From NCBI RefSeq assembly GCF_947489565.1, contig NZ_CANLEA010000006.1, positions 1-64,000 on the forward strand: 64,000 nucleotides of DNA, in the 5' to 3' direction. The notes beneath the pieces are model-generated. The model ran no database searches and was not told the origin of the DNA. It saw nothing but the letters and a program-made list of their open reading frames with translations. A program made the translations under genes and the position numbers. This DNA comes from an uncultured Kordia sp. GTDB taxonomy: Bacteria; Bacteroidota; Bacteroidia; Flavobacteriales; Flavobacteriaceae. Every line of letters begins with the position of its first letter. The stretch's first letter is position 1. Positions 18,733 through 61,271 of this stretch are shown here, one piece after another.

Positions 18733-18766
18733 AAAAGCGCAACAAATTTAAACTTGTTGCGCTTTT
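18733..18766. terminator. Bidirectional terminator shared by polyamine and RiPP operons
   Basis: A 13 bp stem (AAAAGCGCAACAA / TTGTTGCGCTTTT) with an eight-base loop, followed by T's. It separates the rightward polyamine operon from the leftward RiPP operon. Nearly the same stem recurs at 61296-61328 beside the other RiPP-like precursor gene. Confidence 0.88.
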
Positions 18767-18799: not shown

Positions 18800-19030
18800 T
18801 TAAGACTCTAAATCACATTTGATATATTTTGTCCCTCTCAAAATATACCCACAGCTGACATCGCCAGCAAAAGTACCCATTCCTCCACCACAAGTAAGAC
18901 TTACAGTAGGACCATTTCCAGAGTGTTGACATACGCCTCCAGTTCCTCCTAAAATCTCATTTGTTTCGGAATTTAATTTAGAAATAATAAGTTTCTTTAA
19001 ATCTAAACTTGTTTTTTCTTCTTTTTTCAT
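18800..19030 (-). CDS. Class I lanthipeptide-like precursor peptide
   Basis: A 76-residue peptide from ATG 19030 (MKKEEKTSLDLKKL). The leader has the LxLxKLxISKLN pattern common to Bacteroidetes class I lanthipeptides and ends at a GG site (NEILGGTGG). The core of roughly 45 residues contains four Cys and many Ser/Thr (GVCQHSGNG, VSLTCGGG, DVSCGY, IKCDLES), enough for several thioether rings. It is the last gene of an operon with two LanC-like proteins and a nucleotidyltransferase, 43 bp behind the latter. No LanB, LanM or transporter/peptidase is in the window. Confidence 0.75.
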   Translation of the reverse strand: MKKEEKTSLDLKKLIISKLNSETNEILGGTGGVCQHSGNGPTVSLTCGGGMGTFAGDVSCGYILRGTKYIKCDLES

Positions 19031-19073
19031 GTGTAAAAGTTTTAATGTTACACTCAAATATAGACAAACTGAA

Positions 19074-19847
19074 TTACTCTATCCATGATAAATCAAAGTT
19101 TTTTGGGTTTAAGGGATATATTTTATCTTTCATGTATCCATACACAATATCTAGGTTTTCTTTGTTGATATTTTCTTTGTGTAAACTATGAATCCATAAT
19201 TTTATAAAAGTAGCATCAGGAAAAGGCGCTAAGTTGTATTTTTCTAAGTATTCTTTATTGGTCAGAATGTTCTCTATTTTAGTATCAAACGGAAAAAGCT
19301 CCACATTTAAAATAGCAGCATAATAATCCAATGATAACTTCATGAACATAACATAATTTAAAACAAAAAACGGAGAGTCGATATCAGTTTTATTTAAATA
19401 AGTATACCTGCTATAAAGTGAATACATCATTGATTTCAATTCTTCATCAGCGATGTTTTTTTTCAAAAAAGGTTGCGAATAATAATAGGAAGCAATTTCT
19501 TTTAAGGAAGTTAGTTCATTGTTTTTTTGGTATAGAATTCTCCCAATATGTATTGATTTTGCTTCAAGTTTTGACGTAGAAAAGAAATCTGAATTAAACT
19601 TTCGCTTGATCGCTTCTTCAGTTCTACCGATATATGAAAAAGAAAATCCATCTATTTCACAGAGTCCTTTGATGCTTTTCTTTTGCGTGGGACTTACTAT
19701 TAATTTTATATCAACATCCGAATGTTGATTTGCTGCATTTACAGCAAAACTCCCAGTTAGTAATATTCCGACAATCTCGTCTCTATCTTTCCATAGATTG
19801 ACAAATTGCGTAAGCGCTTTTTCCATCTTTATCAAATCAACAGACAT
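19074..19847 (-). CDS. Nucleotidyltransferase-domain protein in RiPP operon
   Basis: A 257-residue protein with a DNA polymerase beta-type nucleotidyltransferase core. The motif LLTGSFAVNAANQHSDVDIKL supplies Gly32-Ser33 and the metal-binding Asp44 and Asp46. A helical C-terminal domain follows, as in aminoglycoside nucleotidyltransferases. I choose ATG 19847 rather than the upstream TTG at 19856. It overlaps the end of the LanC-like gene by 16 bases and precedes the precursor gene. It may adenylylate a small molecule, tRNA or protein, or act on the peptide itself; an antibiotic-resistance role is also possible. Confidence 0.75.
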   Translation of the reverse strand: MSVDLIKMEKALTQFVNLWKDRDEIVGILLTGSFAVNAANQHSDVDIKLIVSPTQKKSIKGLCEIDGFSFSYIGRTEEAIKRKFNSDFFSTSKLEAKSIHIGRILYQKNNELTSLKEIASYYYSQPFLKKNIADEELKSMMYSLYSRYTYLNKTDIDSPFFVLNYVMFMKLSLDYYAAILNVELFPFDTKIENILTNKEYLEKYNLAPFPDATFIKLWIHSLHKENINKENLDIVYGYMKDKIYPLNPKNFDLSWIE

Positions 19848-20851
19848 TCTTTCCAAGTATTTAGTTTATGATTTTTAGAAGCCATTATTGTCAGAGCAAT
19901 TCCCGATAAACCATCCCAAATTCCATGAGATATAGTAGCAATACCTTCTAAGTCTAATTGGTGCATTCCATTGCGCAACCATTCTTTTTTTAAATCCAGA
20001 AAATCATGATTTCCTGTAGTTTTGTAGATGAAATCATAAAAAATACTGATTCTAAAACAATCACTTGCAGCATGATTTCCTTTGGAAAAATGATTGCTTT
20101 TAAAAATGTTTTCTTGTATTTCTTTTACAGAATTTTGACCTAAAATAATCGCAGATTTCCATAAAGAAAAAGCAATTTCAGGATGTGTAATATCAGTTGT
20201 TTTCTGAATATCGTATAGTAGATTGCTAAATTCTTCAAGCATAGGTTTTGCTATGGCATCAAAGGATTTTAACGCTACTACTTTGATAAGAAACCTACAC
20301 ATATTTGCAATATAAATTGCGAAATCTAAATCTCTAGAAATCGGATGATTGGAGTATTGAATACGAAAACGTTCTAAATGAAAAAGTAAATCTATGATGT
20401 GTTTTTTGTACTTCTTTTTCAGTGTGTCAGAAGTTGTATGTGTATATCGATGTATAAAATAAAAACCGTTGCCTAAAGCTCCATCATAAAAGTTTCTGTT
20501 GCCATTATACAAATACTTTAGCATGGTGTCGTATAAATATTCATCAAGTGCATTTTCAAGCAAAGCATCTGCATCTAAATCAATTATTTTACTTGCAGTA
20601 AGATGATCTATAACCCAACCTAGTCCGGCAATTCCGCTAGATAAACTCGGTGTGCTTGTTTGATTATTTACATTGCTCACAAGAACTTCTAATAAATGTG
20701 TAGCTTTTGTATAATATTTTTTATCTCCTGTATACACATAGTAATGAAAATAGAACAACATGATTCCTGCATTACCATCAAGCATTGAATTATTTTCTTG
20801 ATAACGAATCGTATTGGAAATCGTATGTAATAAACGTTCTTCTTCTGTCAT
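19832..20851 (-). CDS. LanC-like protein lacking the zinc ligands (pseudoenzyme)
   Basis: A 339-residue LanC-fold protein, paralogous to its upstream neighbour. Shared blocks are SSGIAGLGWVIDHL (residue ~71), FYDGALGNGFYFIHRY (~121) and the C-terminal ISHGIWDGLSGIALTI and W-K-ECLLI. The cyclase motifs are gone. Where the partner has GLAHG, GWCYG and CHG, this protein reads AIYIAN, FSLWKS and ASDCF, so the Cys-Cys-His zinc site cannot form. It is also about 60 residues shorter. It is probably a regulatory or substrate-binding partner of the intact LanC. The start overlaps the upstream stop by one base (TAATG). Confidence 0.8.
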   Translation of the reverse strand: MTEEERLLHTISNTIRYQENNSMLDGNAGIMLFYFHYYVYTGDKKYYTKATHLLEVLVSNVNNQTSTPSLSSGIAGLGWVIDHLTASKIIDLDADALLENALDEYLYDTMLKYLYNGNRNFYDGALGNGFYFIHRYTHTTSDTLKKKYKKHIIDLLFHLERFRIQYSNHPISRDLDFAIYIANMCRFLIKVVALKSFDAIAKPMLEEFSNLLYDIQKTTDITHPEIAFSLWKSAIILGQNSVKEIQENIFKSNHFSKGNHAASDCFRISIFYDFIYKTTGNHDFLDLKKEWLRNGMHQLDLEGIATISHGIWDGLSGIALTIMASKNHKLNTWKECLLI

Positions 20852-22062
20852 TAGCTAATCATTAAGCATTCGTCCCAATTGGAGTTCAAATTCGTTAAGC
20901 AATCCAACATGACCAATCCTATTCCTGCGACGCCATTAACAATGGAAAAATTATCTTGGATAGAAGCATTATAATCTTGCGCCCATTCATTCGTAGTTTT
21001 TTCAGATTCCGAAAGTGGCGACATGACATCAATTCCTATTTGTAACCAAAACTCAAAAGCTTCTTTAAAAACATCGATGTTGGTTTCTTTATAAATTCGA
21101 TGAAAAATTTGAGCATTTCCAAAAGTACCATGACAAACAAAAGGATCTTTTACCCAAGTTTCTTCAGGAGTTTTTCTTTTTGCGGCATGCATAAGTATGT
21201 CAATGCTGGTTTGTTTTAATGTGTTGTCATTTAGTTGTTTGCCAGCGTTGTATAATGCAATTCCAATTCCTAAATCACCATAACACCAACCCAATCTACT
21301 TTTACGGATGATCTTATCAGCATTAAAAATAGTATTCGGAAATATAGAAAATGTTTCTTCTTGACCATTTCTTACACTTAATAAATAATTGATAGCTTTT
21401 CGTAGCATATCATCCGTTGATGGTTTAAAATCATCGTAAGCGTTTAACTTAGTTAAAATAGAAATAATACTAGCTGTTCCATGTGCTAATCCCAAATCAT
21501 AAGTAGCTTCATCAAAATTATTATTAGTACTTTTCCATTTCAAGGTTTCACCTTCTTCCTCAGCAGTTGATAATAATAAAACTATAAACTCACGAAGTAC
21601 TTTTGCATACCGTTCTTTATCACTTTCAGTTTCAGAATCTCTATATCGATTTAAAAAGTAATAAGCAGAACCAATAGCTCCATGCATATAATCGTAGAAA
21701 TTAATTTCAAAGGAGTATTGCATAAAAGAATAAATGTCAGAATCAAAAGCTTTGAGAAAAGAGTTATCATTTTCAACAATGCCTTCTATGTTGAGATGAT
21801 CCAAGAGCCAACCAAAACCGGCAATTCCATTGCAAAAAGTATAATTGTTAAAACCATTGTTAATTTGATCAATACAACGGTTTAAGATTTCTGGACCTAG
21901 GTTTTTATGATTTTTATCTTTTAAATACTTGGCATAGTGAAATTGAAAAAGAGAAACTCCTGCTAAACCATTGAGAACTCCAATAGGTTGTTCTGCTTCT
22001 AAACTCTCTTTAATTATAGTATGAATCTTTTTTAATTCAGATTCAAAAAAGGGTACATTCAT
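20851..22062 (-). CDS. LanC-type lanthionine cyclase
   Basis: A 403-residue lanthionine synthetase C-like protein. The alpha-toroid repeats carry GxxGxG blocks (NGLAGVS, NGIAGFGW, HGAIGSAYY). Zinc ligands are intact: Cys260 in GWCYGDLG, Cys310 and His311 in FVCHGTFG; His194 in GLAHG is the expected active-site histidine. It would catalyse Cys addition to dehydrated Ser/Thr in the precursor. It is the first gene of the leftward operon LanC, LanC-like, nucleotidyltransferase, precursor. No dehydratase is encoded nearby. Confidence 0.88.
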   Translation of the reverse strand: MNVPFFESELKKIHTIIKESLEAEQPIGVLNGLAGVSLFQFHYAKYLKDKNHKNLGPEILNRCIDQINNGFNNYTFCNGIAGFGWLLDHLNIEGIVENDNSFLKAFDSDIYSFMQYSFEINFYDYMHGAIGSAYYFLNRYRDSETESDKERYAKVLREFIVLLLSTAEEEGETLKWKSTNNNFDEATYDLGLAHGTASIISILTKLNAYDDFKPSTDDMLRKAINYLLSVRNGQEETFSIFPNTIFNADKIIRKSRLGWCYGDLGIGIALYNAGKQLNDNTLKQTSIDILMHAAKRKTPEETWVKDPFVCHGTFGNAQIFHRIYKETNIDVFKEAFEFWLQIGIDVMSPLSESEKTTNEWAQDYNASIQDNFSIVNGVAGIGLVMLDCLTNLNSNWDECLMIS

Positions 22063-22154: not shown

Positions 22155-22715
22155 ATGAAATCAATACCAGATTTTACTGATAATCACTTATTACCTCCGA
22201 GCAAAGGCGATGAAAAAAACATGGATTTTATAAGTCCTTATAAATGTACCACATTAGAAGTTTGTGAGCGTTTTGCTACCTCTGAAATTAGGATTGAAAT
22301 ACTCAAAGGTTTATTAGCTTTTAGAAAACGAATTAACGAAGAAAAGATTACGTTTGGATTTCAATGGTTGTACGGAAGTTTTACAGAAAGAATAGAGATT
22401 AGAGAAGGCAGACCTCCAAGAGATTTAGATGTTACTACGTTTTTTCAAGGGATTTCTAACGAACAAAAAGAAGGCTTTAAAGAAACATTTCCTGAATTTG
22501 TGAATTTTAAAAAGTCTAAGAACAGATTTTATGTAGATCATACGGCTTTTGATATTTCAATTTCTGCAGATCATACGTTTAATATTGTAGGTTCTTTAAT
22601 GCAACTTTTTTCGCATACGCGCGAATGGGAATGGAAAGGAATACTGCGAATAGAATTAAACACTCCTGAGATAGATGAACAAGCTTTAGAATATTTAAAT
22701 AACTTAAAACTTTGA
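22155..22715 (+). CDS. Nucleotidyltransferase-like protein (DUF6932-type)
   Basis: A 186-residue cytoplasmic protein. The GSFTE motif (Gly74-Ser75) followed by RDLDV (Asp90, Asp92) and a later FDISIS is the layout of a minimal nucleotidyltransferase. The N-terminus MKSIPDFTDNHLLPPSKG resembles a family often annotated as DUF6932; I recall that name rather than having searched. It is divergent from the LanC operon with a 92 bp gap, so the two may share regulation. Its substrate is unknown. Confidence 0.65.
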   Translation: MKSIPDFTDNHLLPPSKGDEKNMDFISPYKCTTLEVCERFATSEIRIEILKGLLAFRKRINEEKITFGFQWLYGSFTERIEIREGRPPRDLDVTTFFQGISNEQKEGFKETFPEFVNFKKSKNRFYVDHTAFDISISADHTFNIVGSLMQLFSHTREWEWKGILRIELNTPEIDEQALEYLNNLKL

Positions 22716-61079: not shown

Positions 61080-61271
61080 ATGATGAAAAAGGAAAGAAAA
61101 ATAAAACTTTCGAAACTGAAAATTGCAAAAGTAAATCACATAGCAGCAAAAGGAGGAGTAAATTCCAATGCTTGTGCAACTGTGGAAGTTGAATGTTTTA
61201 CAAATGAATGCAATACGGATGAAACAGATTGTAGGACAACTGTAGGTACACGTAATGGTAATTCGTTATAA
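61080..61271 (+). CDS. GG-leader RiPP-like precursor peptide
   Basis: A 63-residue peptide (or 62 from the second ATG at 61083). The leader KIKLSKLKIAKVNHIAAKGG has the KLxIxKxN...GG pattern shared with the lanthipeptide-like precursor at 18800. The core of about 37 residues carries four Cys and many Thr (NACATVEVECFTNEC, DCRTTVGT). No modifying enzyme is encoded next to it; a single copy with its own promoter and terminator. It might be modified by enzymes elsewhere, such as the LanC pair, or be an unmodified secreted signal. Confidence 0.65.
   Translation: MMKKERKIKLSKLKIAKVNHIAAKGGVNSNACATVEVECFTNECNTDETDCRTTVGTRNGNSL

Follow-up and report, generated by a model that had tools for sequence, protein, structure and literature searches.

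Association of a LanC-linked nucleotidyltransferase family with C-terminal serine or threonine in leader peptides of Kordia and relatives

Class I lanthipeptide clusters of Bacteroidota have been described from Chryseobacterium (ChmABC) and Runella (RuiABC) (PMC9993889), and pinensins are also named as class I lanthipeptides of this phylum (PMC7268733). Up to 176 precursors per genome have been reported in Bacteroidota, in a 2024 article that places LanC and a nucleotidyltransferase around Kordia precursors in one sentence of its Discussion (PMC11118758). Here we analyse such a gene set in a stretch of 64,000 nucleotides from an uncultured Kordia sp. (the window; contig C6 of a 6.42 Mb genome). 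The set, closely packed on the minus strand between positions 18800 and 22062, encodes two LanC-like proteins (LanC1 and LanC2), an ANT-like nucleotidyltransferase (NT) and a Cys-rich precursor peptide with a GG-leader (Table 1). The original prediction had described these four genes as an active-looking cyclase, a LanC paralogue without its three zinc/active-site motifs, a GSF...DVD nucleotidyltransferase and a GG-leader peptide, with no dehydratase at the locus. It called the set unusual and suggested that nucleotidyl transfer could replace the usual activation step of dehydration. The description stands, as all four open reading frames (ORFs) were found on one strand in that interval, and the combination of LanC2 and NT is repeated in relatives.

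The window locus shares with the Chryseobacterium and Runella clusters a zinc-motif LanC, a core with Ser, Thr and Cys following a leader, and the use of a split or single LanB that is encoded elsewhere in the genome or in cis; it differs from them in having its LanB in trans and in the addition of NT, a zinc-less LanC and a terminal Ser/Thr. With the Kordia report of PMC11118758 it has both the genus and the gene pair in common, and the sections surveyed of that article mention no C-terminal rule, no LanC lacking its zinc motifs and no complete cluster from another genus. Nothing beyond that article was found to join lanthipeptides, nucleotidyltransferases and C-terminal Ser/Thr, in a literature search from which subscription journals were largely absent. 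Nucleotidyltransferase genes recur in clusters for ribosomally synthesized and post-translationally modified peptides (lasso peptides, daptides and the Kordia precursors), and in the literature surveyed a reaction is assigned only to PsmN. In the lasso peptides paeninodin and pseudomycoidin, PadeK and PsmK act as kinases on the last residue of the precursor, a Ser, and PsmN, annotated as a nucleotidyltransferase, acts on that same Ser and has been linked to hexoses (PMC9266682). These tailoring enzymes are tied to a C-terminal Ser as we propose for NT, and the likeness is one of annotation and site: PsmN acts on a lasso peptide and after a kinase, whereas the neighbours of NT are LanC proteins, with no lasso cyclase or peptidase. 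What is new here is the tie between the NT family and terminal Ser/Thr, which is a stronger finding than the dehydration proposal.

The nucleotidyltransferase and the last residue of the precursor

NT occurs in 17 copies in 11 Kordia genomes, ten of which carry at least one (G003 has none), and no match at 1e-4 was found in the 49 genomes of other genera among the 60 relatives searched. The copy at locus L057 (genome G004) is interrupted by a stop codon, leaving 16 intact Kordia NT loci, and at all 16 there is a GG-peptide ending in Ser or Thr (CDLES, CDRES, CDRET, GPCS, GACS, GDCS, GYCS, YDCS, FYCS or TWST). The leader of the window precursor ends in ...NEILGG, and its core, with four Cys, runs to the C-terminus ...KCDLES; its relative in G002 ends in ...PCDRES. 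In the peptides observed, the terminal Ser/Thr follows the last Cys at a distance of 0-5 residues. The gap between peptide and NT is below 300 nt in 14 of the 16 loci; it is 674 nt in L037, and in L051 (G002) the peptide is 3 kb away, at the opposite end of the operon. L057 was kept outside the 16, its NT being broken and its peptide frame-broken (...SSQ). In this region (9698-10795 of L057) the peptide ends in ...TWSSQ where relatives have ...TWST, and NT and the neighbouring peptide seem to decay together.

As a control, a leader hidden Markov model (HMM) was run over the fetched Kordia loci, giving 179 distinct leader peptides; these are the top leader-score matches plus those of the window's own genome, with the best 150 scored per genome. 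All 15 that lie within 300 nt of NT end in Ser/Thr. Among the remaining 164, four Ser/Thr-ended peptides belong to NT loci, and just one of the 160 others ends in this way (L129, in G003). Fisher's exact test gives 6e-18 (15/15 versus 5/164), a value inflated by relatedness. The L055 peptide has an ORF that starts within the leader and escaped the leader HMM; it is counted with the 16 loci and not with the 15 peptides. Of the 157 peptides far from NT, 2 (1.3%) end in Ser/Thr, one of them the NT-locus peptide of L051, versus a share of 17.9% for these residues across the core, and so a terminal Ser/Thr seems to be avoided where NT is absent. The commonest last residue of these 157 peptides is Cys (31). 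A broader form of the rule, that every peptide of an NT locus ends in Ser/Thr, was dropped for Kordia on account of four peptides of L038 and L059.

The C-terminal idea was set down before any NT locus outside Kordia had been found. Relatives of NT are found there in G329, from another genus of the same family (L109), in G432, G595 and G620 of genus g31, from another family (the g31 loci including L208, L209 and L210), and in Flavobacterium sp. ASV13 (L307). At ten of ten such NT loci the detected peptides end in Ser/Thr, 21 of 21 distinct sequences in all: two from L109 (ACGT and CGWT), 18 from eight g31 loci and one from Flavobacterium (SRQS). Endings in g31 are TRGS in L208, CNRT twice in L209, and CERT, GTRT, CVRT and DDRT in L210. 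A survey of the first 60 LanB loci listed for g31 comprised 40 with a single-ORF LanB, of which five carry NT, and 20 with a split LanB, of which none does; every peptide detected at the five NT-bearing loci ends in Thr. Terminal Ser/Thr plus a close Cys separates NT from NT-less peptides of g31 well: all 18 distinct peptides of the eight NT loci have the two features, with Cys at most six residues before the end, and so do 2 of the 43 distinct peptides detected at 28 NT-less loci, for a pattern that was defined only after the NT peptides had been seen. At the other 27 of the 55 NT-less LanB loci no peptide reached E<=0.01, and these loci were given no weight.

Fold of the nucleotidyltransferase and its possible reaction

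The structural model of NT (predicted local distance difference test score, pLDDT, of 92) has as its best PDB match the kanamycin nucleotidyltransferase ANT(4'), over the whole length (E 1.1e-7, template modelling score 0.53). ANT(4') (1kny, 4ebj, 6nmk) has the GS-x(n)-DxD/E core in common with NT and differs in sequence (about 10-15% identity) and in substrate, that of NT being presumed to be a peptide. The predicted GSF...DVD motif is present in NT as GS-x10-DVD, and the GS-x(n)-DxD core of ANT and Pol-beta proteins is invariant in all 26 aligned NT members. Twelve residues are invariant across the 26, including G25, S26, D37, D39, E176, K183 and D204. NT is under selective constraint, with ratios of nonsynonymous to synonymous substitution (dN/dS) of 0.12-0.21 in five pairs. 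A PDB sequence search with NT matched the core motif alone, and a contig search of genomes with the window NT as sole query gave no relative. ANT enzymes place a nucleotide on a hydroxyl.

The reading we lean towards, with modest confidence, is that the product of the set is a tailored class I lanthipeptide with a C-terminal Ser/Thr that is nucleotidylated by the ANT-like NT. A single LanB, encoded elsewhere, would dehydrate Ser/Thr of the precursor in trans, and LanC1 would close the thioether rings; NT, as an ANT-type O-nucleotidyltransferase, would place a nucleoside monophosphate (NMP) on the C-terminal Ser/Thr hydroxyl, and at some loci LanC2, its catalysis lost, may hold the peptide and present it to NT. 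We infer the transfer reaction together with its site and donor; by sequence comparison, the hydroxyl of the last residue appears to be the best-supported acceptor. If this is true, peptide-nucleotide conjugates would not be confined to the microcin C and lasso families, a catalytically dead LanC would have a use, and there would be a simple rule for sorting the scattered Kordia precursors. As NT is tied to one precursor residue by comparison, the reaction is directly testable in E. coli, where a system for class I lanthipeptides of Bacteroidota already exists.

Several observations weigh against nucleotidylation of the last residue. PsmN appears to install hexoses, and therefore nucleotidyltransferase-like enzymes at such a site need not leave a nucleotide. 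On the strand after DxD, 24 of 25 NT members have Ser64, and the usual third carboxylate is not obvious; E176 and D204 could substitute for it. In Kordia, the L129 peptide ends in Ser at a locus without NT, L038 and L059 each encode, 477-778 nt from NT, two further GG-peptides whose last residue is not Ser/Thr, and the loci are related, so that the counts overstate independence. Outside Kordia, terminal Ser/Thr alone is a weak mark, because 15 of the 43 distinct NT-less g31 peptides also end in Ser/Thr.

Of the alternatives, the one that survives best, although we consider it unlikely, is that NT acts at the C-terminus in another way, transferring a phospho-sugar or other group, or adenylating the carboxylate on the way to an amide or ester. 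PsmN is a precedent, having been linked to hexoses on phospho-Ser despite its annotation as a nucleotidyltransferase (PMC9266682), and Ser64 in place of the third acid would also suit such a reaction. At L037 (8613-11062; contig C4 of the same genome as the window), where the divergent GG-peptide ends in ...FYCS, NT lies between a P-loop kinase (PF13671) and a methyltransferase, and for this reason a kinase-then-NT order is possible there. However, L037 is the only listed locus with a kinase beside NT, and Ser/Thr would not be needed as last residue if the carboxylate were the target.

Self-protection, in which NT, in the manner of ANT resistance enzymes, would disarm the peptide within the producing cell by nucleotidylating its C-terminal hydroxyl, with the final compound free of this mark, seems to us rather unlikely. 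It involves the same chemistry at the same terminal hydroxyl and is consistent with ANT(4') as best fold match and with the varying gene order; but 14 of the 16 Kordia loci have NT near the precursor, NT is kept with precursors only and has no exporter beside it in the listed Kordia loci, and no mark-removing enzyme was recognised. These points are not decisive.

We regard as very unlikely that terminal Ser/Thr is a by-product of descent or of the leader or precursor class, with NT being regulatory or a toxin-antitoxin-like protein of the MNT family. There are weak sequence matches of NT to MntA, and the counts include related loci, but the rule spans endings as diverse as CDRET, GPCS, YDCS, FYCS, TWST, CGWT, TRGS, CNRT and SRQS, in at least three genera. 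The MNT antitoxins of HEPN/MNT pairs share the core motif with NT; they are shorter than NT and are paired with HEPN, whereas no HEPN partner gene is present among the listed neighbours of NT loci. In this the NT loci are unlike L211 and L212, two MNT/HEPN pairs that, with L213 at a contig end, were the weak matches to NT at the level of the phylum. The identification of NT as an MNT antitoxin was rejected for want of a HEPN partner.

The dehydratase, the LanC proteins and locus layouts

No LanB N-terminal domain (PF04738) is encoded in the window, in line with the predicted lack of a dehydratase at the locus. The only PF04738 protein of the genome is on contig C2, where a LanC lies on one side of it and a PF14028 protein on the other, making a complete split LanB, and each of ten other Kordia genomes has one PF04738 match. 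The pairing of PF04738 with PF14028 that marks class I is also found in cis in L208, L209, L210 and L307. All six PF05147 matches of the genome are in frames of 340-427 aa, and since no LanC domain lies in a longer frame, no fused synthetase of classes II-IV (LanC joined to a dehydratase/kinase) was found there. Neither the ORF list nor Pfam shows the APH-type kinase and HopA1 pair of class V at the locus.

LanB adjoins NT in four of the five non-Kordia loci found by NT sequence. The order in L307, on one strand, is NT, peptide, LanC, LanB-N, LanB-C; L208 has NT, peptide, LanC, LanB-N, LanB-C and a LanC2-like gene; and L209 and L210 have peptides, LanC, a single-ORF LanB, a C39 peptidase/ABC exporter and NT. 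In the fifth, L109, no LanB was noticed among the ORFs listed. Because NT sits in complete LanB/LanC clusters, it appears to work beside a full dehydratase and not in its place. The proposal that nucleotidyl transfer replaces glutamylation or phosphorylation, with NT making O-NMP esters of Ser/Thr that are eliminated to dehydroalanine or dehydrobutyrine, draws on the lack of LanB at the locus and on another activation chemistry in the same genome (the APH-type kinase and HopA1 lyase of L035), but was rejected as highly improbable, because LanB is present once in this and each of the ten other Kordia genomes, NT stands alongside a complete LanB in L208, L209, L210 and L307 and in five more loci reached by LanB-based selection, and NT is linked to the final residue, behind which there is no Cys, with no lyase adjoining NT. 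The other option of the original prediction, a dehydratase encoded elsewhere, fits these results. As to whether that LanB alone dehydrates the precursor, the LanB is present, and we infer its action in trans.

Kordia genomes carry more than 100 scattered GG-leader peptides for one LanB: matches at E<=1 number from 118 to at least 150 per genome (the window's own genome and G001-G010) versus a single LanB in each. The wider picture, a lanthipeptide family with a nucleotide on the C-terminal Ser/Thr, a dead LanC as substrate holder and one LanB for more than 100 precursors, is one that we put forward tentatively.

LanC1 retains the motifs LGLAHG, GWCYGD and VCHG, residues of which are zinc ligands by analogy with NisC. 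It has the catalytic His and zinc ligands of a class I LanC, and the HG, WCYGD and CHG signatures agree with the predicted active-looking cyclase. The LanC beside the genome's LanB is its nearest relative among the cyclases aligned (46% identity). LanC2 has none of the three motifs, as predicted, and the two Cys-bearing blocks are deleted. Its AlphaFold model (pLDDT 84) best matches the lanthipeptide cyclases MadC (E 1.8e-5) and NisC (E 5.5e-5), and LanC2 therefore keeps the LanC fold.

The 16 Kordia loci have four layouts. LanC1, LanC2 and NT occur with a peptide in the window and L051 (type A); LanC2, NT and a peptide in L034 and L052-L055, the LanC2 of L055 being broken (type B); a peptide, NT and an intact LanC in L036, L056, L061 and L062 (type C); and a peptide and NT without LanC in L037, L038 and L058-L060 (type D). 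LanC2 and NT thus recur with LanC1 in G002 and without it in five more Kordia loci, and absence of NT from homologous loci, which would have spoken against the original prediction, is not what the neighbourhoods showed.

Two type-B pairs of LanC2 have dN/dS of 0.23 and 0.24, and the window protein and its L051 counterpart 0.55 at dS 1.34. The view of LanC2 as a decaying pseudogene was rejected on the type-B values, despite the higher window/L051 ratio and the broken L055 copy, and in our reading LanC2 is an accessory protein, under constraint, that belongs to some NT loci. Seven short PF05147 half-matches in Kordia all adjoin NT; outside this count are five half-matches in frames of 640-654 aa and one C-terminal match (542 aa). 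LanC2-like proteins also adjoin NT in L109 and L208, that of L208 being under the Pfam cut-off, and none was found among the ORFs listed for L209, L210 and L307. The idea that LanC2 marks one NT clade together with L208 was dropped, as the position of L208 is unresolved once the tree includes L307, and the clade of types A and B (93/94) is the only one that stands. By eye, L307 and the type-B Kordia loci have neighbours in common (a receptor gene and a small membrane protein), and it is possible, judging from gene content, that the Kordia sets are a reduced remnant of a complete cluster.

Neighbouring genes and other features

Table 1. Features in and next to the gene set of the window
Feature	Position	Strand	Description
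Inverted repeat AAAAGCGCAACAA/TTGTTGCGCTTTT	18733..18766	.	Between convergent genes, terminator-like; read from sequence
Precursor peptide	18800..19030	-	76 aa from ATG; GG-leader; leader-HMM match
NT (nucleotidyltransferase, ANT-like)	19074..19826	-	PF01909 1.8e-4; GS-x10-DVD
LanC2	19832..20851	-	339 aa; PF05147 3.4e-14, best stretch residues 19-160 only
LanC1	20851..22062	-	403 aa; PF05147 2.2e-47
DUF6932 protein	22155..22715	+	Divergent; PF22014 1e-20

The start given for NT is the ATG that aligns with its relatives, the mechanical ORF beginning at 19856. In the ORF list the precursor starts nine codons earlier, at a TTG, and it has no Pfam or NCBIfam match at E<=1. A DUF6932 gene adjoins LanC1 in both type-A loci and is perhaps part of the set; in G002 (L051, 12337-12945; PF22014 6.3e-24) it is on the strand of LanC1. 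The DUF6932 proteins show, by eye, a GSF...RDLDV motif, and for this reason may perhaps be a second nucleotidyltransferase-like protein.

At L035 (7181-10972; contig C16 of the same genome) an APH-type kinase, a HopA1 protein, an intact LanC and a GG-peptide (...CNDY) stand in a row, which, by gene content, would make it a class V-like lanthipeptide locus with LanC; LanC matches of 426-427 aa resembling that of L035 are found in nine other Kordia genomes. Another Cys-rich GG-leader peptide, with the C-terminus ...GNSL, is encoded on the plus strand of the window at 61080-61271.

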